DNA of 64,000 nucleotides. Source: an uncultured Clostridia bacterium. GTDB taxonomy: Bacteria; Bacillota; Clostridia; Oscillospirales; Ruminococcaceae. Within the stretch, counting starts at the first letter, position 1, and every line of letters begins with the position of its first letter. Shown piece by piece: positions 5,879 to 64,000 of this stretch. The position numbers were made by a program, and so were the translations under genes. Where the stretch lies: the NCBI GenBank assembly GCA_947168885.1, contig CAMVNQ010000001.1, forward strand, positions 62,001-126,000, read 5' to 3'. A model generated the notes under the pieces. That model saw only the letters and a program-made list of their open reading frames with translations, ran no database searches and was not told the origin of the DNA.

Positions 5879-5887
5879 ATAATTCTG

Positions 5888-5938: not shown

Positions 5939-5980
5939 CCGGCTGAAAGCCTCGAAAAAAGACAGTAAAAGGATATATTA

Positions 5981-6979: not shown

Positions 6980-7135
6980 ATTGTGACTTATCGTAAAGGC
7001 TTCGCACAGACTCTGAGGTCTTACTTCCGTGTCTGTACCAAGGCTTTGGAGCCACTGACACTTTAAAAGCAGGAGTGCTTGCGGGGAGGGCAGCCGCCGT
7101 TGCAGAGACTTTGAGTCTGTACTTACTCCGGGCGG

Positions 7136-7230: not shown

Positions 7231-7263
7231 AAAATCTTTAAAAACCCAAAAGAGGTGAAACAG

Positions 7264-9030
7264 GTGGGAAAACTGCCGGAGAGCTTTCTTGACGCCCTCA
7301 GGGCGAGCAACGACATAGTGAACGTGATGTCCTCTTATGTCGAAATCAAGCGCGCGGGCAGAGATTATGTCTGCTCCTGCCCGTTTCATTCCGAGCGGAC
7401 ACCGTCCTGCCACATCTACACCGAGACACAGAGCTTTTACTGCTTCGGATGCGGGGCGGGCGGCGATGTCATCAACTTTATCCGTCTGATCGAGCACTTC
7501 GACTACATTGACAGCGTCAAATATCTCGCGCAGCGCGCAGGGCTGTCCATGCCGGATGACACCGATGACGGCGGTGCGAACAAACGCACAAGACTTCTCG
7601 CTATGAACCGCGAAGCCGCGCGGTATTTCCGTGACGTGCTGCTCTCACCCGAAGGCAGAGAAGGGCTTGACTACCTCGCACAGCGTCAGCTGACCCCCGC
7701 CACCATAAAGAAGTACGGGCTCGGGTTCGCGCCAGACGGTTGGCACAATCTACAGTATTACCTCCGCCAGAAAGGCTATACAGACGACGAAATGGAGGAC
7801 GGCGCGCTCCTTGCGAGGCGCAATAACTCCGTTTACGATAAATTCAGACGGCGCGTGATGTTCCCGATAATCGACATTCGCGGAAACGTTATCGCGTTCG
7901 GCGGGAGAACACTTGAAAAAGATGCTCCCGCAAAGTACCTGAACAGCGACGAGACGCTTGTTTTCCATAAGCGCGAGAACCTGTTCTCACTCAATTTCGC
8001 TAAAAACACCAAAGAAAAATTCCTTATCCTCTGCGAGGGATATATGGACGTTATCTCGCTCAACCAAGCGGGTTTTGACTGCGCGATAGCCACTCTCGGC
8101 ACCGCGATAACTCCCCAGCAGGCGAACAAGATGAAGCACTACGCCGAGGAGATCGTTATTTCCTACGATGCCGACGGGGCAGGGCAGAAAGCCACCATGA
8201 AGGCGATAAACCTGCTCGCCGAGGCAGGGATACGTGCCCGTGTGCTAAATATCCCGGATGCGAAGGACCCGGACGAGTACATAAAGCGGTTCGGTGCAGA
8301 GAGCTTCAGACAGCTCCTTATGGGCACTTCGACCGCGCTCGACCACGAGTTCGGACTGCTCAGAGCGGGTATAGACACCGAAACGGCCGCCGGAAAAGCG
8401 GAGTTCCTCAAAAAAGCGGTGGCGTTCCTCGCGAAGATACGAAGCGACACCGACCGTACAGTTTACATATCCGAAGCCGCCAGGATCAGCGCTCAGCCTG
8501 TGAACGCGGTCACGGAGCTCGTCAAGGACAGAATAAAATACGATATACGAAGTGAACAGCGCAATACGGAGCGTGAACTTATCCGCGGCACCGTAAAGCG
8601 CGACCCGATAAATCCCGATTCTCTCACTTTCCCGCGGGAAGAAAAAGCGGAGCGGGGCATAATCGCTTATATGATGCATTCTCCCGATTATCTTCCGCGG
8701 GTCGAGAAAAGTCTTACGGCGGAGGATTTCCCGACAGAGTTCAACCGTCGGGTGTTCAGCTTTATCGCCCAGCATATAAAGAGCGGCGACACGGTCGATC
8801 TTTCGCTCATAAGCAGCGAGTTCGGCGCGGAGGAGACCGGGCGCATAACCGGTATCTGCCGTCAGGCGGATGCTCTTCCGTACAGTATGCCGCGGCTCGA
8901 TGAATACATAAGCGTGCTTGTCGAGCACAGAAGCAAGGCTTCAGAAAAGCCCGTTACCGAGCTCACCGCCGAGGAGATGCTGAAAAAAATGGAGGAAATG
9001 CGTAACAGGAAGAAGCATTCCACCGTATAA
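7264..9030 (+). CDS. dnaG: DNA primase
   Basis: A 588-residue DnaG, normal length for Firmicutes. The N-terminal CHC2 zinc finger shows CPFH (C39, H42) and CFGCG (C60, C63). The Toprim core has LCEGYMD (about residue 256) and SYDADGAG (about 300). A C-terminal helicase-interaction region follows. It makes RNA primers at the replication fork together with DnaB. The start is GTG at 7264 (VGKLPESFLDAL) with AGAGGTG upstream; a longer frame to 7075 runs through the GC-rich repeat and is not credible. The dnaG-rpoD pairing is conserved, but here a MITE separates them. Confidence 0.95.
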   Translation: MGKLPESFLDALRASNDIVNVMSSYVEIKRAGRDYVCSCPFHSERTPSCHIYTETQSFYCFGCGAGGDVINFIRLIEHFDYIDSVKYLAQRAGLSMPDDTDDGGANKRTRLLAMNREAARYFRDVLLSPEGREGLDYLAQRQLTPATIKKYGLGFAPDGWHNLQYYLRQKGYTDDEMEDGALLARRNNSVYDKFRRRVMFPIIDIRGNVIAFGGRTLEKDAPAKYLNSDETLVFHKRENLFSLNFAKNTKEKFLILCEGYMDVISLNQAGFDCAIATLGTAITPQQANKMKHYAEEIVISYDADGAGQKATMKAINLLAEAGIRARVLNIPDAKDPDEYIKRFGAESFRQLLMGTSTALDHEFGLLRAGIDTETAAGKAEFLKKAVAFLAKIRSDTDRTVYISEAARISAQPVNAVTELVKDRIKYDIRSEQRNTERELIRGTVKRDPINPDSLTFPREEKAERGIIAYMMHSPDYLPRVEKSLTAEDFPTEFNRRVFSFIAQHIKSGDTVDLSLISSEFGAEETGRITGICRQADALPYSMPRLDEYISVLVEHRSKASEKPVTELTAEEMLKKMEEMRNRKKHSTV

Positions 9031-51255: not shown

Positions 51256-52362
51256 TTGTACTTCGGAAGTGTAAAATTCTTCAAACACGTTATAGTGATC
51301 GTAACTATACTATTAATAATAACACCATGTGTTTTCTGCTTCACATTGTCTTCGAAGGTGAATGACCTTACAAAAGAAAATGAAAAGCTTAAAGACGAGA
51401 TAGGAGAATACCAGCTCGCAGGTCACCAGACAAGATATGAGGCGGACGAGCTCTTTGGCCTTTACAAAGAGAACCTTGATGATAAGAACAGTTTCCTCAA
51501 ACTCGCGTATGAGTACGACGAGAGTTTGTACAAATCTGCTGCCGGCATAGACGACAGCGCCGTACCCGCATATACCGAAGCAGCCATAACCGCAGCTCCC
51601 GTGACGACCGAAGAGTTCACTCACTCCGGTACCGTGGACATAGATGACCCCGAGGACGATGAACCGGTGAATCTTACGGCATCCTACGAGATGCTTTATC
51701 CCGACCTTTATGCCGATGTTCCCGAGAATATCGTTTATAACGACGATAAGGATTATGTCTATCTCACGTTCGATGATGGTCCATCGAAATATACCAAGGA
51801 TATTCTGAATTATCTCGATGCTTACGATATAAAAGCAACGTTCTTCGTTGTTCCCGACGGTTCGGAGCAGAGCAACGCCCGTCTGAAGGCTATAGCCGAC
51901 GCGGGACATACGATAGGTATCCACACAGCGACCCACGAATATGACAAGATCTATGCGAGCGTCGATGCCTATCTTGAGGATTTCAAGATCGCGTATGACC
52001 GGGTTTATGCAGCAACGGGCATCAAGTGCAAGTTATTCCGTTTCCCGGGCGGAAGCATCAACGATTATAATGCCGAGATACGCGACGACCTTATCAAGGA
52101 AATGACGAGACGAGGATTTATCTACTTCGACTGGAACGTTGACACGAGTGACGCTCTCGGCGCTTCGTGGACGGAGATGTACAACAATGTCCGCACGCAG
52201 GCTATGGATGTGAACCGCGCAGTTATCCTGATGCATGACTATAACGGCGGCTGGAACACTATACTTGTTCTTGAGGATATAATAAAGTGGATCATAGGCA
52301 ACGGCAAGCGTACCTTCCATGTCGGACAGCTCAGCGAGTTCGTAAAGCCTGTTCAGTTCTGA
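51256..52362 (+). CDS. membrane-anchored NodB-type polysaccharide deacetylase
   Basis: 368 residues. One transmembrane segment (about 10-32) precedes a coiled coil (KVNDLTKENEKLKDEIGEY) and a Thr/Glu/Asp-rich linker. The NodB domain spans about 165-360: LTFDDGPSKYT (motif 1, catalytic Asp), GIHTATHEYD (metal-binding His pair), LFRFPGGSIN (motif 3), FDWNVDTSD (motif 4), VILMHDYN (motif 5 His). It likely de-N-acetylates peptidoglycan or another cell-surface glycan. The start appears to be TTG at 51256, 6 nt after GGGTGA. Confidence 0.9.
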   Translation: MYFGSVKFFKHVIVIVTILLIITPCVFCFTLSSKVNDLTKENEKLKDEIGEYQLAGHQTRYEADELFGLYKENLDDKNSFLKLAYEYDESLYKSAAGIDDSAVPAYTEAAITAAPVTTEEFTHSGTVDIDDPEDDEPVNLTASYEMLYPDLYADVPENIVYNDDKDYVYLTFDDGPSKYTKDILNYLDAYDIKATFFVVPDGSEQSNARLKAIADAGHTIGIHTATHEYDKIYASVDAYLEDFKIAYDRVYAATGIKCKLFRFPGGSINDYNAEIRDDLIKEMTRRGFIYFDWNVDTSDALGASWTEMYNNVRTQAMDVNRAVILMHDYNGGWNTILVLEDIIKWIIGNGKRTFHVGQLSEFVKPVQF

Positions 52363-52428
52363 CAAAACAAAGATATAAAACGCCGCAAAGGCGATAAACT
52401 ACACATTGAAAGGAGTACGGACCGAAAG

Positions 52429-52473
52429 ATGTCTGATGCATCTGACGGCTCCGGTCATCAGAAATGGGTATAA
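52429..52473 (+). CDS. 14-residue leader ORF overlapping the bactofilin start
   Basis: ATG TCT GAT .. TAA encodes MSDASDGSGHQKWV. It follows an AAAGGAG about 13 nt upstream, the best ribosome site here, and overlaps the first codons of the bactofilin gene in another frame. It could be a translational-coupling leader or chance. Confidence 0.3.
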   Translation: MSDASDGSGHQKWV

Positions 52474-53498
52474 AGGATAATTTTCAGCAGGCGCTCCGTG
52501 AACTTACCGGCACCGAAAAGGAAGACAAGCGCGAAAAGCAGATCGACGCTATGAAAAGTGCGATCGCTGCAGGCGATACGTCGGAATTTGATGCGATAAG
52601 ACCGGATATGAATGACAGTTCGTCGTTCGAGGAAATAGAGCGCAGAGCTGCCGCGGCTGCCGACGAATACAGCAGACAGCAGAGCGCTTACACCGGACCG
52701 CAGCACATAGACGGGAGCAATATCGGCGACGTTCCGCCTATGCCGGAGGATATACAGCAGAACTACTCCTCCGTACAGCAGCCCTCGCAGAATATGGGCG
52801 GTTACCAGCAGTCTCAGCAGAATAGCGGCTATCAGTATCAGTCCCAGCAGAATATGGGTTATCAGCAGCAGGCGGCGCCCAATATGGGATATCAGCACCA
52901 GTCACAGCAGAATGTCGGTTATCAGCAGGCTTTCCAGAATACAGGATATAACGGACCAACGGCGGGCGATCCCGCAGCAGCACAGCAGGTGATCTTCAGT
53001 GCCGCACGCTATCAGCACACCCAGAATGATGATGATGAGATAACGGTAATCTCGAAGAACACTGTAATAGACGGAAACGTGCGTTCGTTTGCCAATATGA
53101 GTGTTGACGGAAATATAAAGGGCAACATAGAGACCACAAAGGACATCGACCTTAACGGTAAGGTGGTCGGAAACATTGCCTGCAACAACGCGCAGATGCG
53201 TACTTCTCAGATACAGGGCAATATGCAGATGAAGGGCAATGCGTATATGGAGCGAGACACACTTCTGATAGGCGACCTTACATCTACATATGCGAATGTG
53301 AACGGTAAGATAAAGGGTAACCTCGATATAACCGGAAAGGCAGAGCTGAAGAGCGACGCGGTCGTGTTCGGCGATATAAGTGCTTCGACTATAACGGTCA
53401 ACGACGGTGCAATTATCCAGGGTTATGTAAGCACGACCTTCCTCAATAAGGAAGAAAGTAAGAACATCTTCCCCGATACGATCACTATCGGAGACTGA
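52464..53498 (+). CDS. bactofilin-domain protein
   Basis: 344 residues. The first 75 are charged and helical. Residues about 90-170 are low-complexity, with repeats such as QQNMGYQ and QSQQN. Residues about 190-340 form a bactofilin (DUF583) beta-helix: NTVIDGNVRSFANMSVDG, GNIKGNIETTKDIDLNGKVVGN, GDISASTITVNDGAIIQG. Bactofilins self-assemble into cytoskeletal filaments that position cell-wall enzymes; the Q/Y/G tail probably tunes assembly. The ATG has only a weak ribosome site of its own. It lies between cell-wall deacetylase and DNA-repair genes. Confidence 0.88.
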   Translation: MGIKDNFQQALRELTGTEKEDKREKQIDAMKSAIAAGDTSEFDAIRPDMNDSSSFEEIERRAAAAADEYSRQQSAYTGPQHIDGSNIGDVPPMPEDIQQNYSSVQQPSQNMGGYQQSQQNSGYQYQSQQNMGYQQQAAPNMGYQHQSQQNVGYQQAFQNTGYNGPTAGDPAAAQQVIFSAARYQHTQNDDDEITVISKNTVIDGNVRSFANMSVDGNIKGNIETTKDIDLNGKVVGNIACNNAQMRTSQIQGNMQMKGNAYMERDTLLIGDLTSTYANVNGKIKGNLDITGKAELKSDAVVFGDISASTITVNDGAIIQGYVSTTFLNKEESKNIFPDTITIGD

Positions 53499-53509
53499 GA
53501 AAAGAAAGT

Positions 53510-53549
53510 CCCCTGCAGTCCGGAAGCTGTCCGCTGCAGGGGCTCTTTT
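53510..53549 (+). terminator. terminator after bactofilin
   Basis: CCCCTGCAG / CTGCAGGGG with a 15-nt loop, followed by CTCTTTTA. Confidence 0.8.
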
Positions 53550-53561
53550 ACGGAGACAGAT

Positions 53562-54374
53562 ATGGAATACCATTATAAAACCCGCTGTCTCGATCTTAAG
53601 CAGACGCTTGAGAGCGGACAGTGCTTTCGCTGGCGGAAGCAGGACGACGGTTCTTATGTCGGGATAGCCGGAAGCCATGTCCTTAAAATCTCGCAGGTCA
53701 GGGACGGAGCATTGCTTACTGTGAGTAATAAGGAAGATGCAGATTACTGGCTGAAATATTTCGACAGCGAAACGGATTATGAAGCTGTAATAAAGCAGTT
53801 CTCCGCAGACAAGACTCTCGGTGAGGCGGCAAGAGAAAACAGCGGGATAAGAATACTCCGCCAGGAGCCGTTCGAGACGCTGATAAGCTTTATAATATCG
53901 CAGAACAATAATATCCCGCGTATAACCGGTATAATCTCGCGGCTCTGTGAGAACTTCGGGGAAAGGATAAGCGACGAATACGGAGGTATGTGGACTTTTC
54001 CGGACGCGGGAAGGCTTGCCGCGCTTTCGCCCGAGGATCTCGCGCCGCTTCGTGCGGGGTTCCGTGTGCGTTACATACTTGATGCGTCGGTTAAAGTCGC
54101 GGACGGGACTATCGACCTTGACAGCATATATGATATGAGCTACGACGACGGAAAAGCGTATCTTAAAACGATAACCGGTGTCGGAGACAAGGTCGCGGAC
54201 TGTGTGCTTCTATTTGCTTATCATAAAACTTCGGCTTTTCCGACTGACGTTTGGATAAAGCGCATTGTCGCCGAGTATTACAGCGACGGATTGCCGGAAT
54301 GTATGGGTGAGTACAAGGGCATAGCTCAGCAATATCTTTTTGAATATTTCAGGAAGCATTCATCCGCAACCTGA
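53562..54374 (+). CDS. ogg: 8-oxoguanine DNA glycosylase/AP lyase (Ogg1 type)
   Basis: 270 residues. The N-terminal domain (LDLKQTLESGQCFRW) is that of OGG1/AlkA proteins. The HhH-GPD core spans about 100-250: EPFETLISFIISQNNNIPRI, then the hairpin ITGVGDKVADC, whose Lys (near 209) is the Schiff-base lysine of bifunctional OGG1, and FPTDVWIKR with the catalytic Asp (near 228). It excises 8-oxoguanine from DNA. It starts after the bactofilin terminator; its own promoter is not obvious. Confidence 0.9.
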   Translation: MEYHYKTRCLDLKQTLESGQCFRWRKQDDGSYVGIAGSHVLKISQVRDGALLTVSNKEDADYWLKYFDSETDYEAVIKQFSADKTLGEAARENSGIRILRQEPFETLISFIISQNNNIPRITGIISRLCENFGERISDEYGGMWTFPDAGRLAALSPEDLAPLRAGFRVRYILDASVKVADGTIDLDSIYDMSYDDGKAYLKTITGVGDKVADCVLLFAYHKTSAFPTDVWIKRIVAEYYSDGLPECMGEYKGIAQQYLFEYFRKHSSAT

Positions 54375-54432
54375 AGTAAATATCTGGTTGCAATATACAA
54401 AAAGTATATCATAAATGGAAGGATATGAGATA

Positions 54433-55026
54433 ATGATTTGCAGAAATTGCGGAAATACAACGGACGACGGCATATTGTTCTGTCCGTACTGCGGAAAGAA
54501 AATAGAGGAAATAATCGACCTTGAAAAGAAGTCAGCAGCGGTAAACGATGTGTTTGCAGCGCAGCAGACGTCAGGTTCGGATGCCGAGCTGACCGGTGCT
54601 GCTGTCTCGGCGTTCACGGATAAGTCGGGTGTGAACGCAGCACCTGTAAATCCGGTGCCCGCCTCAACCACTGTGCCGCCGTCTCAGCCGGTATCTCCGG
54701 TCACACCCGTTCCGGCATTCGACAGAGCTCCGGGACAGAACCCGTTTCCGGTACCGCCCGTTACACCGGTGCCTGCGTTCAGCGGCACACCGGCATCGGA
54801 GCTCCGACCGACACATAATGCTGCCGTACCGCCCGTACAGCCGCTTAAGCCTGCCGCCCCGGTCCAGCCGTTAACGCAGACACAGCAGACGAAGTCCGCT
54901 TCGGGAAAGAAAAAAGAGTTCTTCGGCGCAGGAGCGTTTGCGCTCTGTCTTGTTATAATCGGTCTTCTTTCGGCTTCGACAGGTATATTCGCTTATCTGT
55001 ATTTCTCTCTTGCTGGTGTTTTATGA
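54433..55026 (+). CDS. zinc-ribbon membrane protein, proline-rich
   Basis: 197 residues. The N-terminal zinc ribbon is ICRNCGNTT..FCPYCGKKI (two Cys pairs). A Pro/Ala/Val/Thr-rich linker of about 120 residues follows (VPPSQPVSPVTPVPAF) and a C-terminal hydrophobic helix (FALCLVIIGLLSASTGIFAYLYF). ATG 54433 has GGAAGGA upstream; a frame to 54415 would start before that site. It overlaps the next gene by 4 bp, so it is probably co-expressed with the membrane metalloprotease-like protein. Function unknown. Confidence 0.75.
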   Translation: MICRNCGNTTDDGILFCPYCGKKIEEIIDLEKKSAAVNDVFAAQQTSGSDAELTGAAVSAFTDKSGVNAAPVNPVPASTTVPPSQPVSPVTPVPAFDRAPGQNPFPVPPVTPVPAFSGTPASELRPTHNAAVPPVQPLKPAAPVQPLTQTQQTKSASGKKKEFFGAGAFALCLVIIGLLSASTGIFAYLYFSLAGVL

Positions 55027-55646
55027 GTGATTCATTCAAGAAGATCATCGGTATCGGTGCTATCATATTAGTTTCTGCGCTGGTCGGAATACTGCTCGGG
55101 CAGCTTTTCTGCAACTATGAGATGCGATATATGTTTGCGCGGGAATACTGCGGCGATGTCAACGGTATTGAGATTTACGCCGCCGGTGAGATAGACCGTG
55201 ATAATTTCGTGAAACATCTCCAAATGCTCGTGGATGCACCCGAAAAGCTTACGGAATGCTGTGACAAGATATATTTTACCGGAAGCAGTCTCGGTGTTCC
55301 GGCATCTGACTCGGGACTCGGCAACGCACTCGGGCTGACGCAGAACCGCACGATCTATATATCCACAGAGAGTTTCAGCTCTTACGTCGTTTATCACGAG
55401 CTTTTCCATGCATTCGACAACGCGAATGAGCGTTTGTCGGAGACTACGGAGTTTGTAAAGCTCTATGCGGAGAATGACAGGATAATGCCCGTTTTCGCGG
55501 CTCACAGTGATGAATACGCCGCAGAGTTCTTCGCACAGGTCGGTGCCATGTATTTGCTGATGCCGTTTGAACTGTCGGTCTCCGCACCGGATCTTTATGA
55601 CTATTATGACAGTACCCTTGGATTTGGTAAAGCTGACAAAAGATAA
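55023..55646 (+). CDS. membrane-anchored HExxH zinc metalloprotease-like protein
   Basis: 207 residues. An N-terminal membrane anchor (about 8-28) is followed by an extracytosolic domain with VVYHELFHAFD: H125, E126 and H129 form a zinc HExxH motif, and EYAAEFFAQ about 45 residues later could supply the third ligand Glu, as in gluzincins such as the anthrax lethal factor-like group. A single-domain secreted protease or a decayed one are both possible. Overlap with the zinc-ribbon gene (ATGA) implies a pair. Confidence 0.7.
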   Translation: MSDSFKKIIGIGAIILVSALVGILLGQLFCNYEMRYMFAREYCGDVNGIEIYAAGEIDRDNFVKHLQMLVDAPEKLTECCDKIYFTGSSLGVPASDSGLGNALGLTQNRTIYISTESFSSYVVYHELFHAFDNANERLSETTEFVKLYAENDRIMPVFAAHSDEYAAEFFAQVGAMYLLMPFELSVSAPDLYDYYDSTLGFGKADKR

Positions 55647-55666
55647 TATATGATTTTGTTATAAAT

Positions 55667-55776
55667 AATGTGTCCTCAATAACTGCCTTTCGGCAGTTAT
55701 TGTTCCAAAGTCCTCAAAGAGGACTTTGGAAAGCCTTAAAAATACGCTTTCAGCGCCTTTTTAAGGCGGACACATT
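55667..55776. ncRNA. cloverleaf-like four-way junction, candidate structured RNA or DNA element
   Basis: The outer stem AATGTGTCC / GGACACATT (55667-55675, 55768-55776) encloses three back-to-back hairpins with almost no unpaired junction bases. These are CAATAACTGCC-TTTC-GGCAGTTATTG (55677-55702), TTCCAAAGTCCTC-AAA-GAGGACTTTGGAA (55703-55731) and GCCTTAAAAA..TTTTTAAGGC with an inner CGCT-TTC-AGCG (55733-55767). All four stems are perfect over 9-13 bp. It lies between convergent genes. Transcription is not shown; a small repeat or terminator array is an alternative. Confidence 0.6.
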
Positions 55777-55789
55777 CCTTGCACTTTTG

Positions 55790-55837
55790 CAACCGTGAAA
55801 AGTCTTCAAGCTGCGCTATGAAGCTTTTTCACGGTTG
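55790..55837. repeat. long hairpin next to the cloverleaf
   Basis: CAACCGTGAAAA / TTTTCACGGTTG arms (12 bp) with an inner CTTCA / TGAAG stem and an apical AGC/GCT. The right arm is preceded by an extra T-rich tract. Confidence 0.75.
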
Positions 55838-55851
55838 ATGAGCAGACATTA

Positions 55852-55888
55852 AAAAATGAGTGTCCCCCGCCTTTGGCAGGGGACACTC
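55852..55888 (-). terminator. terminator of the zinc-ribbon (Ala-Pro) gene
   Basis: GAGTGTCCCC..GGGGACACTC with inner GCC-TTT-GGC. The A-run on its left reads as TTTTTT on the minus strand after the stem. Confidence 0.85.
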
Positions 55889-55905
55889 GCTATTTTGCGA
55901 TTTTA

Positions 55906-56832
55906 TTATCCTAAGAACTTAAAGAAGCGTAAGATAACGGGTTCCTTCGATTTGTTGGTGAATACTCCAATAAGGGAGATAACGCAGATAACGAGGAGAC
56001 CCCACGCGATAAGGTAATGCGCAGCAAAGCCGACAAGAGGTAAGAACTGCGTTACAAAGCAGGCGAGGAAGACCGCGGAGATCTTGAGGTTCTGCTTTGC
56101 GTGGAATACGATGTACGGGCTCTTGACTGCTGTGAAAGCAAGGATAGCGCACAGTACCGCAGGTATTATCGCAACAAGAAGCTCAGACGGCGAGAGAACT
56201 ACTGTGGTTCCGAGAAGCATTCCAATAATGTTGCCGAAGAAATTCCTGAAAACGGTAATAACGTTGTTGTTCGCGATGAATGTGTAGAGCATCGCGGCGT
56301 TGAGCAGATAAAGCGCACTTGCGATTATCTTGTGAGAGGAAACGTCCTTCGCGTCAAACTCGTCGGTGTGATCGTATTTTCCGGAGGTGTCTATTCTCGT
56401 AGCCTGCTGCTGTGCCTGCTGAGGCTGGGGTGCGGGTGCAGGCTGTGGCTGAGGCTGAGGTGCAGGAGCCGGAGCAGGTGCAGGAGCCGGAGCGGGTGCA
56501 GGAGCCGGAGCAGGTGCAGGAGCCGGAGCAGGTGCAGGAGCGGGTGCGGGAGTCGGAGCAGGTGCAGGAGCCGGAGCAGGTGCAGGAGCCGGAGCGGGTG
56601 CGGGAGCCGGAGCGGGTGCCGGTGCAGGTGCAGGTGCAGGTGCAGGAGCCGGAGTGGGTGCGGGTGTGGGAGCCGGTGCAGGAGCGGGTGCAGGTGCAGG
56701 TGCCGGTGTGGGAGCCGGAGCGGGTGCGGGTGTGGGAGCCGGTGCAGGAGCGGCAGCTACAGGAGCTCCGCAGGAAGTGCAGAACGCAGAGCCGTCCGGG
56801 AGCTGTGCGCCGCATTTAGTACAGAATGCCAT
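55906..56832 (-). CDS. zinc-ribbon membrane protein with long Ala-Pro repeat
   Basis: 308 residues. The N-terminal zinc ribbon is FCTKCGAQLPDG..CTSCGAPV (about residues 3-23). It is followed by about 120 residues of almost pure Ala-Pro (with Thr and a short Gln-Pro run), encoded by a repetitive GGAGCC/GGTGCA tract. The C-terminal half has four or five hydrophobic helices with FHAKQNLKIS, resembling DUF4870-type membrane domains. The Ala-Pro region should be an extended rigid spacer between the cytosolic zinc finger and the membrane part. Function unknown. GGAGAG precedes the ATG. Confidence 0.78.
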   Translation of the reverse strand: MAFCTKCGAQLPDGSAFCTSCGAPVAAAPAPAPTPAPAPAPTPAPAPAPAPAPAPTPAPTPAPAPAPAPAPAPAPAPAPAPAPAPAPAPAPAPTPAPAPAPAPAPAPAPAPAPAPAPAPAPAPAPQPQPQPAPAPQPQQAQQQATRIDTSGKYDHTDEFDAKDVSSHKIIASALYLLNAAMLYTFIANNNVITVFRNFFGNIIGMLLGTTVVLSPSELLVAIIPAVLCAILAFTAVKSPYIVFHAKQNLKISAVFLACFVTQFLPLVGFAAHYLIAWGLLVICVISLIGVFTNKSKEPVILRFFKFLG

Positions 56833-56878
56833 AGGTCATCTCTCCTTTACATTGGCAATATCGATAAATTATATATTT

Positions 56879-56907
56879 ATTATATCATTACAGCAAGACT
56901 TTGTCAA
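56879..56907 (-). promoter_or_regulatory. promoter of the Ala-Pro zinc-ribbon gene
   Basis: On the minus strand a perfect TTGACA (56907-56902), 17 bp and perfect TATAAT (56884-56879). MITE copy 3 begins 25 bp upstream of the -35. Confidence 0.8.
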
Positions 56908-56931
56908 TGAAAATGTGGTTTATATGCTTAT

Positions 56932-57088
56932 GGGAACCTCTAAAAACCCATTTGAGAGAAAAAGAGCTACTTGCACCGATAGCTGCGTCAAGCCTCCTCA
57001 CCGTGCGCCAGCACGCTTTCGGAGCCTCTCCTTGCTCTCGGCACAATTATCTCATTTTCTCTTTTCAAAGCGGTTTTTAGAGGTGCCC
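56932..57088. mobile_element. 157-bp MITE-like element, copy 3
   Basis: Reads identical to the two copies near 5.7 and 9.1 kb, same orientation, with flanking TTAT duplication (56928-56931, 57089-57092). It sits between a promoter and the terminator of the GH25 gene. Confidence 0.88.
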
Positions 57089-57093
57089 TTATG

Positions 57094-57125
57094 AAAAAAC
57101 TGTCCCTGCCTTTCGGCAGGGACAG
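57094..57125 (-). terminator. terminator of the GH25 gene
   Basis: CTGTCCCTGCC-TTTC-GGCAGGGACAG (11-bp stem). Minus strand continues GTTTTTTCAT. Confidence 0.88.
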
Positions 57126-57135
57126 CGCAGATAGC

Positions 57136-58554
57136 TTAGCCCATATTGTTTAGATGATACTTCCTGAATATAGCCGGCCAGTCTTTATAGCTGTAATCGA
57201 GGTCGATACCGCCTTCGATACCGTTTACTCTGCCGGTGAATGAGTACTGCCAGATATAGTAGCCGCCGTCGTAGGTGACTTCATCGCCGACCTGTGCGAG
57301 CCATACCGCGTACTTGTCCAGCGTGCTCATGTCGAGATACTGCTCTATCCAGCTCTTGTACGAATAGAACATCGGGAAGTAGCCATTTTCCATAAGCACT
57401 TCGAAGAATGCGTCGATCATGTTCGTTAGCTTCTTCTTGCCTATGTCGCCCTGATACTGCTCTTCCATATCGAGGATAACGGGGTACTGTATCTGATAAT
57501 CCTTTATGGTTTTTACGAAGAATTCGGCTTCCGCACGTGCTTCCGCGACAGTGGAGGCGTAGCTGTAGAAGTAAACGCCGACGTCGATGCCGTATTTCTG
57601 TGCTTCGGCGATATTGCGGCGGAAGCATACATCTTCTGCCATGGGCTTTTCTTCGGATATGTAGCCGCGAGCGGCTCTTATGATCGCGAAATCAACGCCG
57701 GAAGCGGCTACCTTTGCCCAATCGACGGAGTCGCCCTGTGCCCACGAAACATCGATGCCCTTTCGGAACACATCCGGCTCGTCAAGCAGTATATCGACGG
57801 TCATGTTCTCGAACTCATATACAGGTCGGTTGTCGTTGAATCTACCGCTCTTGGTCAGAGTTATGGTCTTGAATCTTGTATATGTAGCGGTCTCGGACAG
57901 CGACAGTGAGCCGCTGCACCGGACGTTGGACGCTGTACCGACGGTAAGGTGTCCGCTTACGTCGATCACACCGCTGAGTGACACGGACATTATTCCGCGC
58001 AGTTCAAGGGTACTGTTTTCGATAGTACGAATGACGCTGCTCAGCTTTACGTCGCTGCTCTTATAGAAGCTGAGCAGTCCCTTGACATATATCTCTGAGC
58101 CCTTGAATATCTTTACGCCCGACGAGACTTCTACAGCGCCGCGGTTGTAAATAGTCATATTTCCGGAAATGCTTATCGTTGCACTTACTGATGACTGCAT
58201 AAGACCGTAGATGTTGAGCTTGCCGCCCTTTTTGATGTTAAGCGCGCCGTAGTTCATGATCGTGCCGCCTATTGCTGCGGAAAGCTCGCCGTAAACGGTG
58301 AAGCTTGCGGTCTTGGTTATTTTCAGGGTCGCGCCCTCGCGAACGCTTATCTTCGTTCCGACAGGAACGGTAACAGCCTGCTTGATTTTTATAGTATCGA
58401 GTACATAATATGTATGTCCGGCTTTGAGTTCCGACTTACCGTCCCACACTATAGCGGAAGCCGCGTCTGCGGGCACCGCAAACAGCGACAGCATAACGGA
58501 AAGACATATCAGGAGTGCTGCTGCGGCTCTTGTGAGCTTTCTGGTATTTGCCAT
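57136..58554 (-). CDS. secreted GH25 muramidase with N-terminal beta-solenoid-like domain
   Basis: 472 residues. A signal peptide (MANTRKLTRAAAALLICLSV.. cleaved near AVPADA) is followed by about 200 residues of short beta-strand repeats (KKGGKLNIYGLM, ISGNMTIYNRGAVEVSSG, GIMSVSLSGVIDVSGHL), a right-handed beta-helix-like pattern. The C-terminal GH25 lysozyme domain starts near 265: RKGIDVSWAQ (catalytic Asp), FAIIRAARGY, VGVYFYSYA, YPVILDMEEQ (catalytic DxE), YYIWQYSFTG, and GIDLDYSYKDW. It cleaves peptidoglycan outside the cell. ATG 58554 follows AAAGGAT; a 10-codon upstream frame is unlikely. Confidence 0.9.
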   Translation of the reverse strand: MANTRKLTRAAAALLICLSVMLSLFAVPADAASAIVWDGKSELKAGHTYYVLDTIKIKQAVTVPVGTKISVREGATLKITKTASFTVYGELSAAIGGTIMNYGALNIKKGGKLNIYGLMQSSVSATISISGNMTIYNRGAVEVSSGVKIFKGSEIYVKGLLSFYKSSDVKLSSVIRTIENSTLELRGIMSVSLSGVIDVSGHLTVGTASNVRCSGSLSLSETATYTRFKTITLTKSGRFNDNRPVYEFENMTVDILLDEPDVFRKGIDVSWAQGDSVDWAKVAASGVDFAIIRAARGYISEEKPMAEDVCFRRNIAEAQKYGIDVGVYFYSYASTVAEARAEAEFFVKTIKDYQIQYPVILDMEEQYQGDIGKKKLTNMIDAFFEVLMENGYFPMFYSYKSWIEQYLDMSTLDKYAVWLAQVGDEVTYDGGYYIWQYSFTGRVNGIEGGIDLDYSYKDWPAIFRKYHLNNMG

Positions 58555-58593
58555 AAAAACTATCCTTTCGGAATAATATATCATTATATATCT

Positions 58594-58622
58594 ATTTTCG
58601 CATATTTACGCCAAAATGTCAA
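58594..58622 (-). promoter_or_regulatory. candidate promoter of the GH25 gene
   Basis: On the minus strand TTGACA (58622-58617), 17 bp, GAAAAT (58599-58594). From 58623 to 58886 no gene is visible; the DNA is AT-rich. Confidence 0.5.
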
Positions 58623-58886
58623 ACATTTTTTTGCATTTTCCATAAATTCGTCAAAAATAATGGGCATAAGCTACGTTTTGGTATCAGCAAAGGTGCGAAA
58701 AGCCCTCAAATTATTCCGCGGGGTTTTCCACTTTTCAACGTTAAAAAGCTGTTTAAAACTGAGTACTCGTATGTTTTTGCACAGGTTTTAAGCATTTTCC
58801 ACAGCAAAAGCTTTGCCCGTATTCATTTTTATTCTGTAAAAAATCACTATTTTTTTGCGGCGGCGGGAAATAGAGTGCAAAAACGC

Positions 58887-58915
58887 TTGACGATAGGACG
58901 GTTTTAGGTTAAAAT
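58887..58915 (+). promoter_or_regulatory. rpe promoter
   Basis: TTGACG 58887-58892, 17 bp, TAAAAT 58910-58915. Confidence 0.6.
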
Positions 58916-58982
58916 TATCATTGCGGCAATAGGGATATTTATGCCATTTTGCCAAAAATGTGATTTCTGAAAGGGATTGAAA

Positions 58983-59621
58983 ATGCCCGAAACTATTATA
59001 TCGGCATCGATACTTAACTCTGATCTTGCCGATCTCAAAGGAACAGCCGGACGTGTTGACGCGAGCGGAGCCGAATGGCTGCACTTCGACGTTATGGACG
59101 GCGGATTCGTCGAAAACATCACGTTCGGAAGCTCGGTTCTCGCGGCTGTCAGACCGCATTCCCACGCTTTTATGGATGTTCATCTTATGGTAACTCATCC
59201 GCAGACACAGGTTAAGCTTTTTGCGAACGCCGGTGCGCAGATGATAACGTTCCATATCGAAAGCGACTGCGACCCTAAAGCGGTCATAGACGAGATACAC
59301 GCTCTCGGCATAAAGGCGGGAATTGCCGTTAAACCGAAAACGCCGGTCGCGGAGATAAAGCCGTTTATCGACGCTGTTGATATGGTGCTTGTTATGACGG
59401 TCGAGCCGGGTTACGGAGGTCAGGGATTCATACACGATACCCTCGGCAAGATACGCGAAGTCCGCGATCTTTCGCCGGATAAGTACATCGAGGTTGACGG
59501 CGGGATAAACCGTGAAACATCGAAGCTTGTCCGTGAAGCCGGCGCGAATGTGCTTGTCGCAGGAACGTTCCTGTTCCGTGCGGAAAATATGGAAAAAGCT
59601 GTCGGAATGCTGAAAGAGTGA
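58983..59621 (+). CDS. rpe: ribulose-phosphate 3-epimerase
   Basis: 212 residues, a complete TIM barrel: IISASILNSDLADLKG, LHFDVMDGGFVENITFG (metal-binding His/Asp), FMDVHLMVTHPQ, ITFHIES, VLVMTVEPGYGGQGF, and YIEVDGGINRETSKL. It links ribulose-5-phosphate and xylulose-5-phosphate. An allulose-6-phosphate epimerase relative cannot be fully excluded by eye. ATG 58983 follows AAGGGAT; TTG 58977 lies too close to it. Confidence 0.9.
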   Translation: MPETIISASILNSDLADLKGTAGRVDASGAEWLHFDVMDGGFVENITFGSSVLAAVRPHSHAFMDVHLMVTHPQTQVKLFANAGAQMITFHIESDCDPKAVIDEIHALGIKAGIAVKPKTPVAEIKPFIDAVDMVLVMTVEPGYGGQGFIHDTLGKIREVRDLSPDKYIEVDGGINRETSKLVREAGANVLVAGTFLFRAENMEKAVGMLKE

Positions 59622-59629
59622 CCTTTCTC

Positions 59630-59773
59630 TCTTCGGAATTGCCATTATATCGCGATAGTCTGCGTCTGTCAAGGGTATCCAAAAATTTTTTGCTGTAAAA
59701 ATCGGGCAAAAATTTTTCGGAGCCTGCCCCTTGACAGACTTGCCAATCGCGATTTGGGGCAATTAGCCGAAGA
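59630..59773. repeat. 144-bp long inverted repeat after rpe
   Basis: The arms are imperfect but long: outer TCTTCGG / CCGAAGA, then TTGCC / GGCAA, ATCGCGAT on both sides, and GTCTGTCAAGGG / CCCTTGACAGAC, enclosing a loop with two CAAAAATTTTT runs. It could fold into a large hairpin or be a decayed mobile element; no transposase is seen. Confidence 0.65.
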
Positions 59774-59816
59774 AAGGACAGGAGCAGTGCCCGGTAATTT
59801 TTGCGCGGCAGCGTCT

Positions 59817-59858
59817 GGGTCCAGCGTCACGCTGGCGCGGTCCAGCCGCGTAGGCTGG
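59817..59858. repeat. GC-rich hairpin module, third copy
   Basis: GGGTCCAGCGTCACGCTGG, matching 7140 and the inverted copy near 32550, followed by CCAGCC-GCGTA-GGCTGG. It lies between the long inverted repeat and the MecA-like stop. Confidence 0.7.
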
Positions 59859-59889
59859 TCCCGTCCGGAAGGACACGCGCGCAGGCGCT

Positions 59890-60450
59890 TCAGCAGAGTG
59901 CGGAGAGCTTGCTGACGGCGGATGTGGGGCAGATAACGGAGCCGTGTTCTTTGACGAAGGCTATGTCCGTCGGGTCATCGGAAAGGCTGCCGTATTCACC
60001 GATAATGCGGGAGACAAGAGCCGCATTCGCTGTCTGTACCTTTATAATAAGCCAGTAATCGCTTCCGAGCCTGTATAATGCCGATGTGCGTACCTTGCCG
60101 GTGAGACTCCGGCAGAGACGGGCAGTGTCGCCGAGTGCGGCGGTGCAGCACATGAGCGGCGTTGTCCTGCGTTCGGGCTCCGGCGGCGGAAGTATATCCG
60201 AGCCGAGAGTCGATACATATAATATGCAGCCGCCGTCGTCGGACGGAAAGGCTTCGAGGAACAAGCGCTCTGCCTTATGGTCGGGGAAAAGAGAGCTTTC
60301 GGACTGGAATTTTTTCAGAAAGCTTGTAAGGCTGCGCTTTGACTCGGCGGTACGGGAACGAAGGCTTTCGCTTTTCAGAGAATAGTCCTTCATATCCTTT
60401 CCGGTAAGCGTTATCTTTACGGTGTTTCTGCTGAGTGCGTCATAGTACAT
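59890..60450 (-). CDS. mecA: MecA-like adaptor protein
   Basis: 186 residues. The N-terminal part (TVKITLTGKDMKDYSLKSESL) and the central block (SKRSLTSFLKKFQSESSLF, AERLFLEAFPSDDGGCILYVST) match the MecA pattern of a small N-domain, a low-complexity linker (PPPEPERRTTPL) and a C-terminal domain (WLIIKVQTANAALVSRIIGEYGS). MecA hands substrates to ClpC; in Bacillus it controls ComK. The resemblance is moderate and the ClpC contacts cannot be checked here. ATG 60450 follows GGGGGC. It is divergent from the RnfD-like gene (37 bp gap). Confidence 0.7.
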   Translation of the reverse strand: MYYDALSRNTVKITLTGKDMKDYSLKSESLRSRTAESKRSLTSFLKKFQSESSLFPDHKAERLFLEAFPSDDGGCILYVSTLGSDILPPPEPERRTTPLMCCTAALGDTARLCRSLTGKVRTSALYRLGSDYWLIIKVQTANAALVSRIIGEYGSLSDDPTDIAFVKEHGSVICPTSAVSKLSALC

Positions 60451-60487
60451 GGAAATGCCCCCAATATAAAATTTACAAAGGATCAAA

Positions 60488-61891
60488 ATGTCTGATAACA
60501 CAAACGAACTGCTGAACAAATTTGACAGCGATGTAAAGACCTATGAGACTTCCGCGGTGAAAAAGCAGCGTAAGTCCAAGTCCATATACGGAGACCAGCT
60601 GATCTGCCTTCTTGCCCTTGTGGGTATGAGCATCTGGCAGAGCGGCTACAGAGCGCTTGTGATATGCCTCAGTTCCGTTCTTGTCTGCATCCTGTCCGAT
60701 ATGATATTCTGCCGCATGACGCGCAAGACCTATAATCCGCGTGATCTGTCGACTATCGCGTCGGGTCTTTGCATCGCACTTATGATGCCCGCGTCCGTAA
60801 ATTACGGTATTGTTGTGGGCGGAGCGCTTCTCGCGATCGCGGTAAAGCACATATTCGGCGGAAAGGATAACTATATCTTCAATCCGACCTGTGTCGCGAT
60901 AGCCTTTCTTATCATCTGCTTCCCGGGAGATATGCTGTTTTATCCCGCTGTCGGGTCACAGCCGGAACTCTGGGGCGACCCTAACGTTCCGCTTGTTTCA
61001 GGAGTTGAGTTCTATCTGCTGAAGCTTGGTACCGCGCCCGCGGTATCGCTCGAAAACATAATGCTCGGTATAACCGCCGGACCCATGGGAACGACTCAGC
61101 TGCTTATCATCGCGGTGTGCGGGATATGCCTGATGCTGCGCCGGTCGCTCTCGCCGCTCGTAACGCTGTTCGGACTTGGCTCATACTGTGCGCTGACAGT
61201 GCTGTTCCCCGTTTTCTCGAATATCGGTGACACTATGCTCATGGAGCTTTCGGGCGGATACCTCCTGTTCGGGTTCGTTTTTCTCGCGGCTGACCCGCAG
61301 ACCATGCCAAAGACCGCGTTCGGAAAGATAATACTTGGATTTGTCATAGGTATAGTCGGATGCCTTTTCCGACATTTCGGAAAGGTCGAGGGCTCGTTCA
61401 TTTTCGTCATACTCATAGCCAACGCCCTTTCGCTCAAGCTTGATGATGTGTGCGCGGCGATAGTTCACGGTGTGAAGCATGCCGCCGGATATATGAAGAG
61501 CAATATGGGACGCTATGAAAAGCTTCGCAGCGAAGCGGAGAACGAGGGCAGACCGAAGCTCACCGATACTATGGAAATTATTGTTCCACCGACGAACTAT
61601 AATATGCCGCCGATAGACAATAAGGTCACGAAAATCAACCGCAAAAAGACAAATATTATTACAAGATATACCGAAAATCTCCGTATAAAGCGCCGAAAGG
61701 ACGAGCTCGTCCGCAAAAAGCAGATCCGTGACAGCGAAAACAGCTACATGAATGCTATGCGCAGTATGATAAGCAAGAGAAAAGAAAGAGAGACCGCCCA
61801 GAAGACCGAGGAGCCAAAGACGGTCACAGGACATATCATCAAGCAGCCCCGGAAGCGTTCACAGCAGAAAAACAACAAACAGGGACAGTAA
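60488..61891 (+). CDS. RnfD/NqrB-family membrane protein with basic C-terminal tail
   Basis: 467 residues with about nine or ten hydrophobic segments. The family signature is clear: RDLSTIASGLCIALMMPASV and AVKHIFGGKDNYIFNPTCVAIAF (canonical FGGxGxNxFNPA). LLFGFVFLAADPQTMPKTAFGKI matches the FMATDPVTxP-like loop. The covalent-FMN motif (S/T-G-A-T) of RnfD/NqrB is not found at the expected site, where LGTAPAVSL is seen. Residues about 345-467 form a cytosolic, strongly Lys/Arg-rich tail (KINRKKTNIITRY..RKDELVRKKQIRD) absent from normal RnfD. ATG 60488 follows AAAGGATCAAA. Confidence 0.8.
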   Translation: MSDNTNELLNKFDSDVKTYETSAVKKQRKSKSIYGDQLICLLALVGMSIWQSGYRALVICLSSVLVCILSDMIFCRMTRKTYNPRDLSTIASGLCIALMMPASVNYGIVVGGALLAIAVKHIFGGKDNYIFNPTCVAIAFLIICFPGDMLFYPAVGSQPELWGDPNVPLVSGVEFYLLKLGTAPAVSLENIMLGITAGPMGTTQLLIIAVCGICLMLRRSLSPLVTLFGLGSYCALTVLFPVFSNIGDTMLMELSGGYLLFGFVFLAADPQTMPKTAFGKIILGFVIGIVGCLFRHFGKVEGSFIFVILIANALSLKLDDVCAAIVHGVKHAAGYMKSNMGRYEKLRSEAENEGRPKLTDTMEIIVPPTNYNMPPIDNKVTKINRKKTNIITRYTENLRIKRRKDELVRKKQIRDSENSYMNAMRSMISKRKERETAQKTEEPKTVTGHIIKQPRKRSQQKNNKQGQ

Positions 61892-61931
61892 TATCCGGAG
61901 AACAAAAGAATATAACTAAGATCGGAAAATT

Positions 61932-62855
61932 ATGGAAAACAGGTTAAATCTTAAAGACGGACTTATAAAACAGAATATGATCTTTATGAGCGGTATGCTT
62001 ATCGCGCCTGTTATTGCGTGCGCAACAACGCTTATGAAGAGCCTTGCCGTGTGCTTCGTATTTTCGTTCGTTTCGCTCGTGACGATACTTGTGTGCAGAT
62101 TTATCCCGCGCACGATCGTCTATACCATAAGAGTCACGCTTTACACGATAGCGGCGGCGGTAGTCTATATCCCTGCGGCCCTGCTCGCCAACCTTATCTT
62201 CGGCGACGCTATAATAAAGGCGGCGGGTGTGTATCTGCCTATACTCATAACGAACTCACTTATCCTCTCAAAGACCGAGACGCGCTTTTATCTTGAGCCG
62301 AAAGGCAATATGGCAAAGGACATCATCGGATTTATCATCGGATTTGACATAGCCTGCACGATAACGGGTGCTCTGCGTGAGTTTCTCGCGTCGGGGAAGA
62401 TCGCAGGCGCGGAGATACCCATATTCTTCACAATACCGGCGCTTGAAACGACATTTGGCGGGTTCCTTTTCGTAGGGATCGGAGCCGGACTTTTCCGTGC
62501 GGTGTATAACTACCGTAAGGCTCATGCGGCGGACGAAGAGGACGAGGATTCTCTCGCGGAATATGCCGAGGATGTCGGCGAGTTTCTTGTCGGTCGTCAT
62601 ACACACGGCGACAAGGAGAAGATAAGGATATACAAGGCTGCCGTAAAGAGGGCACAGAGCGAGAACGACCTGCTTGAGATGGAGTTCCTGAGCAACCGGG
62701 ACGTGCTTGCGGCTTTTGAAGCTATCGTATCCGAGGGTCAGGAGCTCACTTCGGAAAGCAAAGCCGAAGACGCGGACGATGAGGGCGATGAAACGGAAAC
62801 CACCGGTAAAACCGGTGAAACGGAGGGCGGAACGGAAAATGCAGATATTTCTTAA
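61932..62855 (+). CDS. RnfE/NqrD-like membrane protein with acidic C-terminal tail
   Basis: 307 residues. Residues 1-200 hold six hydrophobic helices in the RnfE/RnfA arrangement. At the first cluster-ligand position (GLCP in RnfE) the sequence reads GMLIAPVIAC (Ala25 in place of Cys), and at the second (T-N-C) it reads LITNSLIL (Ser109). A Cys occurs at position 30 instead. The last 105 residues are cytosolic and very acidic (DEEDEDSLAEYAEDVGEF, EDADDEGDETET). No Shine-Dalgarno stands out; the start ATG is 40 bp after the RnfD-like stop. Confidence 0.75.
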   Translation: MENRLNLKDGLIKQNMIFMSGMLIAPVIACATTLMKSLAVCFVFSFVSLVTILVCRFIPRTIVYTIRVTLYTIAAAVVYIPAALLANLIFGDAIIKAAGVYLPILITNSLILSKTETRFYLEPKGNMAKDIIGFIIGFDIACTITGALREFLASGKIAGAEIPIFFTIPALETTFGGFLFVGIGAGLFRAVYNYRKAHAADEEDEDSLAEYAEDVGEFLVGRHTHGDKEKIRIYKAAVKRAQSENDLLEMEFLSNRDVLAAFEAIVSEGQELTSESKAEDADDEGDETETTGKTGETEGGTENADIS

Positions 62856-63435
62856 TATAGTTTCCGCAGCTCTTGCGGCGATATTTATCCAGAACATTAT
62901 CCTTGAGCGTGCGCTCGGCGCGAATGTGCTTTTATATGCGTCGCGCAAAAAAGAGCACGTTATCGGGTTTGCAGCGGCGATAACCTATACGACGACTGTT
63001 GCATCGCCGGTAATATGGATATTTGACACTCTTCTCGGAAAGAATGAATATTACGGCTTCATAATGCCGCTGCTGTATGTTTTCACTATTGCGCTTATTT
63101 ATATCGGCACACTTGTCGTGATCTGGCGGTTTTTCCCGTCGTTTTTCAAGACTCTTCGGAAATATGTGCATCTTTCCGTGTTCAACTGCTCGGTCATCGG
63201 CGCGCTTTTCCTTTGCTCACAGCAGGGAAACGATATTTTTGCGTACATCGGCTACGGCTTCGGCACAGGCATTGGTTTCCTCGTAGCAGCGTATCTTCTT
63301 TACGCGGCGTCGGAGCGGCTTAACTCAAAGCTTGTTCCCGCAGCATTCAGAGGTTACCCTATTATGATAGTATATGTCGGTATCCTGTCTCTTGCGCTTT
63401 ACGCATTCACAGGTTACTCTACATCGGCAGTTTGA
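62839..63435 (+). CDS. RnfA/NqrE-like membrane protein
   Basis: 198 residues with six hydrophobic helices: SAALAAIFIQNIILERALGA, then AAITYTTTVASPVIWIF, FTIALIYIGTLVVIW and SVFNCSVIGALFL. Canonical RnfA has GLCPF in the first half; here it is LGANVLLYA with no Cys, while the second motif N-C-x-V-x-G survives (C117 in FNCSVIG). It overlaps the RnfE-like gene by 17 bp; ATG 62839 lies 11 nt after GGAGGG, inside that gene's end. Confidence 0.75.
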   Translation: MQIFLNIVSAALAAIFIQNIILERALGANVLLYASRKKEHVIGFAAAITYTTTVASPVIWIFDTLLGKNEYYGFIMPLLYVFTIALIYIGTLVVIWRFFPSFFKTLRKYVHLSVFNCSVIGALFLCSQQGNDIFAYIGYGFGTGIGFLVAAYLLYAASERLNSKLVPAAFRGYPIMIVYVGILSLALYAFTGYSTSAV

Positions 63436-63598
63436 TATCAATTGCATAATTATTTTATCCGGTTCGCGGATATATCCCGATCATGACAAGTGTGTTTGCG
63501 GTTCAAAAGAAGAAATGTGCAGTATTGATTATGTCACAATTCAGATAAGCCGCGAAGCAGCACGACAATTATGAATTATAAAGTAAGGAGAATGTGCT

Positions 63599-64000
63599 TT
63601 GGACAGGCGCAGACGTTACGGAAGAAAAATAAAAAAGACCAGGAACCTGTATCGCAGAAAAAAGAGCGCAGGACAAAAGGTCTTTGGTACTGTTATGCTG
63701 GTTATCGCGGCAGCCGCGATAGCCTTTCTCGGGTTCTGCATCGGAAAGCCGCTTCTTGACTACATCGGCAGTATAGGCAAGAACGAGCCTGCGGAATGGA
63801 CCCCAGAGGCTTCATACAGTGCGCGGAGCGAAACCGCATCCGCAGAACCGCCCGCCGATACCGCCGAGCCCGTTCAGGTCACGGAGAGCACGACTCTTCT
63901 CACAGATTCAGAGGTTTCGGGAATTTTCGAAACGGCAGACACAAAGCAGTCTGTCGGCACCAATCAGCCGCACTCGACCTCTGCTCCGGAGAATGACAGC
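63599..64000 (+). CDS. signal-anchored membrane protein, N-terminal part only
   Basis: 134 residues visible, open to the edge. A basic N-terminus (DRRRRYGRKIKKTRNLYRRK) is followed by one hydrophobic helix (VFGTVMLVIAAAAIAFLGFC) and a Ser/Thr/Glu/Pro-rich outer region. The TTG start is preceded by AAGGAG with 8-nt spacing; an ATG at 63592 in another frame gives only a short frame. The family cannot be told without the missing C-terminus. From 63436 to 63598 no gene is seen. Confidence 0.65.
   Translation, partial: MDRRRRYGRKIKKTRNLYRRKKSAGQKVFGTVMLVIAAAAIAFLGFCIGKPLLDYIGSIGKNEPAEWTPEASYSARSETASAEPPADTAEPVQVTESTTLLTDSEVSGIFETADTKQSVGTNQPHSTSAPENDS

Follow-up and report, generated by a model that had tools for sequence, protein, structure and literature searches.

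In a stretch of 64,000 nucleotides from an uncultured Clostridia bacterium of the Ruminococcaceae (assembly GCA_947168885.1, contig CAMVNQ010000001.1, positions 62,001 to 126,000; the whole stretch is called the window in the following), three adjacent genes encode homologues of RnfD, RnfE and RnfA, membrane subunits of the RNF complex (ferredoxin:NAD+ oxidoreductase, RnfABCDEG). The electron-carrying parts are lost here, yet selection preserves the three genes, which points to a new role without redox chemistry. On the evidence of the sequences, the trio is probably a membrane-only RNF descendant in Oscillospiraceae-type gut bacteria with a new, redox-free function. An initial annotation, made from the letters of this DNA alone, had proposed a derivative without the usual electron path. 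This part of the proposal is strongly supported by the data presented here; whether the trio is "transporter-like or structural", as it continued, is a matter of interpretation.

The three open reading frames are located on the forward strand at 60488..61891 (D, RnfD/NqrB-like, 467 amino acids), 61932..62855 (E, RnfE/NqrD-like, 307 amino acids) and 62839..63435 (A, RnfA/NqrE-like, 198 amino acids), as initially annotated. For A, the ATG at 62839, which overlaps the stop codon of E, is better placed than an in-frame TTG at 62707. All three proteins exceed the cut-offs of the Pfam families PF03116 (NQR2_RnfD_RnfE; D 9e-55) and PF02508 (Rnf-Nqr; E 4e-17, A 2e-27), and their best matches among the PDB chains are 7zc6_D (1.5e-25), 7zc6_E (1.8e-14) and 9eri_A (3e-20). 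By these matches, D, E and A are clear homologues of RnfD, RnfE and RnfA, in canonical relative order. The profile comparison is divided, however, as the cut-offs of the NCBIfam models rnfD, rnfE and rnfA are missed widely (112 of 207 bits for D, 44 of 213 for E and 90 of 229 for A). D retains the motifs FGG...FNP and ADP.T.P. An artefact of reading frame or assembly was ruled out, since D-E-A was found again across many genomes.

To check the cofactor and ion-path positions, the proteins were aligned with canonical ones and with chains of solved structure. The comparison covers 24 canonical-type loci (23 rows for E and A; among them a second operon, L006, and the odd locus L052), 13 loci with a cofactor-poor quartet of an RnfC-like gene and D-E-A (12 for A) and 25 trio loci (24 for A). 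In addition, a set of 65 trio loci was obtained by a scan of further public genomes, many of which are the same as those of the first set; several of its loci are cut by contig ends. The window trio lacks three of the four cysteines that bind the [2Fe-2S] cluster as well as the threonine to which flavin mononucleotide (FMN) is attached, in agreement with what had been read from the letters. In E, both cluster cysteines are substituted, the first by Ala25 (62004..62006) and the second by Ser109 (62256..62258). In A, Asn29 (62923..62925) stands at the first position and Cys117 (63187..63189) is the sole remaining cluster cysteine; all codons named here lie on the forward strand. Cys117, which corresponds to RnfA C113, is not conserved in the family (canonical 23/23, quartet 5/12, trio 14/24, 43/62 in the 65-locus set). 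The other three positions, RnfE C25 (canonical 23/23), RnfE C108 (22/23) and RnfA C25 (22/23), hold no cysteine in any quartet row (0/13, 0/13 and 0/12) or trio row (0/25, 0/25 and 0/24).

In RnfD of Clostridium tetanomorphum, FMN is bound to Thr153 and riboflavin is flanked by Asn124 and Asp248 (PMC9588780). The FMN threonine is present in 24/24 canonical rows, in 1/13 quartet and 3/25 trio rows (L080, L082, L099) and in none of the 65-locus set. Arg130 is likewise found in 24/24 canonical rows, and in 0/13 quartet and 0/25 trio rows. Both riboflavin residues, by alignment to 7zc6_D, are kept in the window as Asn132 (60881..60883; riboflavin pocket) and Asp269 (61292..61294; riboflavin/ion pocket). 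The asparagine occurs in 24/24 canonical, 12/13 quartet and 23/25 trio rows and in 65/65 of the larger set; the aspartate in 24/24, 12/13 (one Glu) and 23/25 (two Glu) rows and in 64/65, the remaining one being a gap.

For Acetobacterium woodii, an ion pair of RnfE Arg67 and Glu115 has been described, together with the RnfA residues E88, P107, T110 and T111 (PMC11889175). The pair is kept in E of the window as Arg67 (62130..62132) and Glu116 (62277..62279). Its arginine is found in 23/23 canonical, 10/13 quartet and 25/25 trio rows, and its glutamate in 23/23, 4/13 and 25/25 rows; in the 65-locus set both are present in 64/64. An asparagine precedes the position of the second cluster cysteine in 25/25 (E) and 24/24 (A) trio rows and in 8/13 (E) and 12/12 (A) quartet rows. 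Judged by these alignments, the cofactor loss in the trio is selective: the redox ligands are gone, and the riboflavin pocket and the RnfE gate are retained.

The missing subunits were not recognised at the locus either. There was no recognisable rnfB, rnfC or rnfG in the 10 kb after the trio, and the canonical RnfB, RnfC and RnfG of the same genome, used as queries, gave no match in the 16 kb around it. The gap between D and E is 40 bases, so that there is no space for rnfG. That the three genes sit just beyond the window was ruled out by searches of the sequence past 64 kb; the initial annotation, which had seen none of them nearby, was right beyond the window end as well. A separate full rnfCDGEAB operon, for which a search had been proposed, lies elsewhere in this genome, on a different contig (G000:C2, ~93.2-98.2 kb). 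The two FMN_bind matches of the genome lie on contigs other than that of the trio. D carries PF03116 only, and no fused PF00175 domain was found by Pfam. Neither NqrF nor NqrA was detected among the Pfam-scanned neighbours, NqrF not having been searched genome-wide. Single-sequence queries recognised no C, G or B in the 65 trio loci, several of which end at contig ends.

Selection on the trio is purifying. The ratio of nonsynonymous to synonymous substitution rates (dN/dS) was 0.07-0.16 for D, 0.07-0.13 for E and 0.02-0.13 for A over five trio pairs, 0.06-0.09 for all four genes of a quartet pair from family f24, and 0.08-0.15 for C, D and A and 0.37-0.44 for E in two comparisons within family f7, all of these values being rough since some dS estimates are ~1 or above.

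Genomes that contain only the derived form served as natural controls. Four genomes of one genus (G041, G064, G081 and G122; completeness 90-98%) each contain a single RnfD match and a single derived E/A pair; in three of them the quartet itself was seen (L045, L090, L091), and G122 was judged by scores alone. These four genomes contain no flavinylation genes, as neither ApbE nor an FMN_bind domain was found. RnfB did not exceed the cut-off in any of them (best 48-49 bits of 68.7). In canonical controls from their family (G096, which shares their genus, G109, G146 and G134), ApbE and one FMN_bind match each were present and RnfB was over the cut-off in 3/4. The rnfB model also matches many ferredoxin-like genes, and only matches over the cut-off were therefore counted. 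Six of the seven canonical-operon genomes reached it; the exception is G109, whose retrieved contig ends inside A.

Within the genus of the window genome, the trio D was matched in 34 of 35 genomes (E-value 1.5e-69 or better; in two pieces in G003 and G024), and in the remaining one, G011, E and A are trio-like; 20 of these loci were retrieved for inspection. The 65-locus set bears mostly the titles Ruminiclostridium sp., Oscillospiraceae and uncultured Clostridia, with few Eubacterium, Ruminococcus, Roseburia and Bacteroides. It contains D in 65, E in 64 and A in 62 loci. The search of relatives for the same three genes, which the initial annotation had suggested, thus finds them throughout the genus and in related genera; other families have intermediate forms. 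A profile of the derived E reached at least 148 bits in 6 of 243 genomes of the class, all in the order of the window genome, followed by a next best score of 128 bits. Since the f7 type is not part of this profile, such forms outside the order are not excluded.

The surroundings are shared as well, and the gene order rpe, mecA (divergent), D-E-A, DUF4015 is conserved. In the window, rpe for ribulose-phosphate 3-epimerase (58977..59621, forward strand; PF00834 8e-67) marks the locus and is found in 61/65 loci. The divergent MecA-like gene (59890..60519, reverse strand; PF05389 3e-13; 57/65 loci) is a further locus marker and lies outside the complex. Going downstream from A, the first genes to be identified encode DUF4015, YajC (PF02699, 2e-27) and a polysaccharide deacetylase. 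The DUF4015 gene, coding for a putative membrane-anchored glycosyl hydrolase, occupies 63599..64000 on the forward strand and continues past the window to ~64903 (PF13200 4e-15; 59/65 loci). YajC was found downstream in 41 of the 65 loci, upstream on the opposite strand in 10 and downstream on the opposite strand in 1.

In other families of the order, similar surroundings hold either a canonical CDGEAB operon or the cofactor-poor quartet, C*DEA, in which C* denotes the RnfC-like protein. Canonical, quartet and trio forms thus have rpe/mecA/DUF4015 in common, and because of these relatives the trio looks like an rnf operon that descended in place. Among the 13 loci classed as quartet, L051 ends at a contig end after E. 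The gap between D and E is at most 20 bases in all 13, which leaves no space for rnfG. C* keeps all eight 4Fe-4S cysteines in 13/13 loci, and the loop glycines 140 and 142 in 1/13 each; this glycine loop presumably serves FMN/NADH. Weak matches of C* to the FMN-domain model persist. In L043, L058, L083-L086 and L093-L095, the eight cysteines are kept, and in most of these proteins an acidic stretch takes the place of the loop. A possible interpretation of C* is a cytosolic relay from iron-sulfur clusters to riboflavin with both ends cut.

The trio rows form one clade, with 25 rows at 96 in the D+E+A tree and 24 rows at 97 in the tree of D alone. For the quartets of family f7 (L045, L090, L091), some of the comparisons suggest an independent second origin of the loss. 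Their C and D have canonical f7 operons as best outside rows, first L092 of the same genus; for E these are L042 and then L092, and for A L040, L096 and L041. The f7 group was placed within the canonical clade in the first D+E+A tree and joined to canonical f7 at 95.8 in the C+D tree. When the long row L171 was left out, the f7 group instead joined the derived clade in the D+E+A tree, at 99. Approximately unbiased tests did not reject a single derived clade (p 0.346 for D, p 0.443 for C+D).

Several further loci deviate from these forms. Of 20 second-copy RNF stretches, 15 have all six canonical genes; no G was recognised in L168 and L169, L170 has C* and D* only, L171 is a further trio and L181 is cut. 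The second copies cluster with L054 and L057 and apart from the other canonical operons. L170 (G054:C18:20000-30489, 3931-6173) is a C*-D* pair without recognised E, A, G or B adjacent, its D missing the FGG motif with FNP still present; possibly it represents a further reduced form in another family. L171 (G057:C22:13000-24000, 3793-6001) is a very divergent D-E-A by rpe and DUF4015 in yet another family, with an open frame of only 134 amino acids for E. L052 (G051:C16:17000-30000, 5622-8423) holds RnfC-D-B with a canonical-looking D and no G, E or A recognised adjacent. L040 (G036:C68:1-4787) is a cysteine-bearing D-E-A with no G or B recognised on the short contig.

From these observations, the following course can be proposed. 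An rnfCDGEAB operon would have been reduced in place, with loss of RnfG, RnfB and lastly RnfC. In parallel, the [2Fe-2S] ligand set of RnfA and RnfE and the covalent-FMN site of RnfD would have disappeared, so that the D-E-A membrane set remained, presumably as one complex. The C*DEA form, in which C* has two 4Fe-4S motifs and no glycine loop, persists in relatives. RnfA and RnfE retain the asparagine that adjoins each lost second ligand of the cluster, RnfE also its Arg67-Glu115 gate, and D its cytosolic pocket, which may still bind riboflavin. Ion passage (Na+ or H+) could then be gated without electron transfer, by flavin occupancy, membrane potential or the conserved tail of D. The retained RnfE gate and RnfD flavin pocket make us lean to a transporter-like role. 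It is quite possible, and we propose it tentatively, that A and E let Na+ or H+ pass by alternating access, as a carrier or leak without redox chemistry, and that D is the half that binds flavin and has a regulatory or structural part. A slightly more doubtful extension is that a redox-driven ion pump became a redox-free carrier, perhaps more than once, by removal of the electron wire and retention of the gate; this would be the first RNF/NQR branch without a through-membrane electron path.

Several findings weigh against such a carrier. In A, the trio no longer has the ion-path residues of RnfA (Leu for E88, His for P107, Val for T110, Phe for T111). E88, T110 and T111 are absent from every trio row, and the position of Pro107, His111 in A of the window (63169..63171), is His in 24/24 trio rows, 0/12 quartet rows and 61/62 of the 65-locus set, the remaining one being a gap. 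The gate glutamate is retained in only the 4 of 13 quartet rows mentioned above, and the sister rows L081 and L082 have other residues at both pocket positions. RnfD is said to take no part in Na+ movement (PMC11889175). Finally, the derived rows L080, L082, L099 and L095 have Thr at the FMN position, in L080, L099 and L095 as Thr-Pro as in canonical RnfD; the loss is uncertain there, and the FMN site of these three may survive.

Another explanation, which we regard as unlikely but worth weighing, is a structural scaffold: D-E-A would move nothing and form a membrane platform for DUF4015 or another partner, with the D tail for docking. The frequency of DUF4015 at the trio loci fits this, and so does the finding that the DUF4015 gene beside the trio is the only match in the whole window genome. 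Genus g26, from the family of the window genome, has no DUF4015 and a single RnfD match per genome in 3/3 genomes (G065, G123, G167), so that the derived locus and DUF4015 may be lost together. However, DUF4015 also adjoins canonical RNF, and the association therefore predates the cofactor loss and may be plain synteny. Among 10 genomes with DUF4015 and an RnfD match not known as derived, it lies within ~5 kb of rnfD in 5 (G037, G038, G045, G059, G096) and not near it in G040, G046, G050 and G052, the RNF loci of the latter two not having been retrieved; G036, on a 4.8 kb contig, cannot be judged. Moreover, four f24 quartet loci (L058, L093-L095) show no DUF4015 neighbour, and a scaffold could do without the Arg-Glu pair of RnfE and the pocket of RnfD.

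The tails bear on the scaffold as well. The D tail is basic and the long E tail acidic in the window genome (net charges +19 and -21), as the initial annotation had noted. Its suggestion that the two bind each other does not hold as a general feature, since over 86 related trio loci the E tail is at least +3 in 46 and -5 or lower in only 25. Charges of D and E tails are correlated at a Spearman coefficient of -0.45 over these 86 loci, which are related and partly come from the same genomes twice. As far as the alignments go, what is conserved in the D tail is a motif and not mere charge: DTxE with a YNMP-like stretch occurs in 76-77 of 90 trio D proteins, in the window as DTxE...NYNMPPIDNK, a conservation that docking would explain.

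Less probable still is a role in flavin handling, in which D has lost its outer FMN site and transports or senses riboflavin via the retained pocket. The near-invariant N124/D248 equivalents argue for it, as does the fact that the outer-site residues Thr153, Arg130 and E184 (L006 numbering) are lost or rare. On the other side, retention of E and A is left unexplained, no flavin gene is present among the identified neighbours (not all neighbours were identified), and no FMN riboswitch was found in window positions 52000-64000 (Rfam, E up to 1). The sole Rfam match there is a sub-threshold ctRNA match at 55846-55928. It lies at the edge of a reading frame (55906-56832, reverse strand) for a protein that has a CxxC pair motif at its N-terminus and a long Ala-Pro repeat.

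An accessory or hybrid complex, in which the trio docks with canonical RNF subunits encoded elsewhere and alters RNF activity, is improbable. A second, canonical-type RnfD match indeed exists in 33/35 genomes of the genus, G003 and G033 being without one. However, in G033 (completeness 96%) the trio occurs with ApbE and a single weak FMN_bind match; canonical matches for RnfD and RnfA/E are absent there, and RnfB does not exceed its cut-off. The four control genomes have a single RnfD match and a single derived E/A pair. Without cysteines and FMN, the trio is also unlikely to carry electrons. That the genes are a relic on its way out after a second RNF took over is very improbable, for although stepwise loss is visible (CDGEAB, C*DEA, DEA and the C*-D* pair of L170) and second-copy operons group apart in the tree, the trio genes have dN/dS of 0.02-0.16, the trio recurs in 65 loci and the four control genomes have no second RNF.

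In the available parts of the literature we recognised no description of RnfDEA or RnfCDEA without an electron path. The coupling of electrons and ions in RNF and NQR is disputed, with alternating access of RnfA/E (PMC11889175) standing against a channel in RnfD (PMC9588780). A natural version that is kept by selection without an electron path shows which parts are useful without redox chemistry, and the trio offers a ready-made test whether RnfA/E can alternate without an iron-sulfur cluster. For annotation, it is a warning that matches to RnfD, RnfE and RnfA alone do not mean an energy-conserving RNF.

By the features tested, the trio is neither an RNF complex nor a two-subunit Nqr/Rnf-like complex. 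With the RNF complex it shares the homologous D, E and A in canonical relative order, the riboflavin pocket residues of RnfD, R67/E115 of RnfE and, for several canonical operons of the order, the rpe/mecA/DUF4015 surroundings. Unlike RNF, it has no B, G or C, no [2Fe-2S] ligand set in A/E and no covalent-FMN threonine in D. The flavinylated two-subunit Nqr/Rnf-like complexes are reported to pair an RnfG-like subunit that binds FMN with an RnfD-like part fused to an NAD-binding domain (PMC8238504, PMC11334425). They are reduced RNF relatives as well, with an RnfD-like part without flavinylation site, but the trio lacks both the RnfG-like subunit and the fused domain and keeps E and A. The membrane core NqrB/D/E of Na+-NQR, for which four cysteines and FMNs are reported (PMC12174285, PMC4014512), is homologous to the trio. 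NQR recruited NqrF, whereas no NqrF-like gene was identified beside the trio. According to a published proposal, an rnf operon was duplicated, lost rnfB and gave rise to NQR (PMC4014512). The trio resembles this stage, a duplicated rnf operon losing rnfB, but its fate was a different one.

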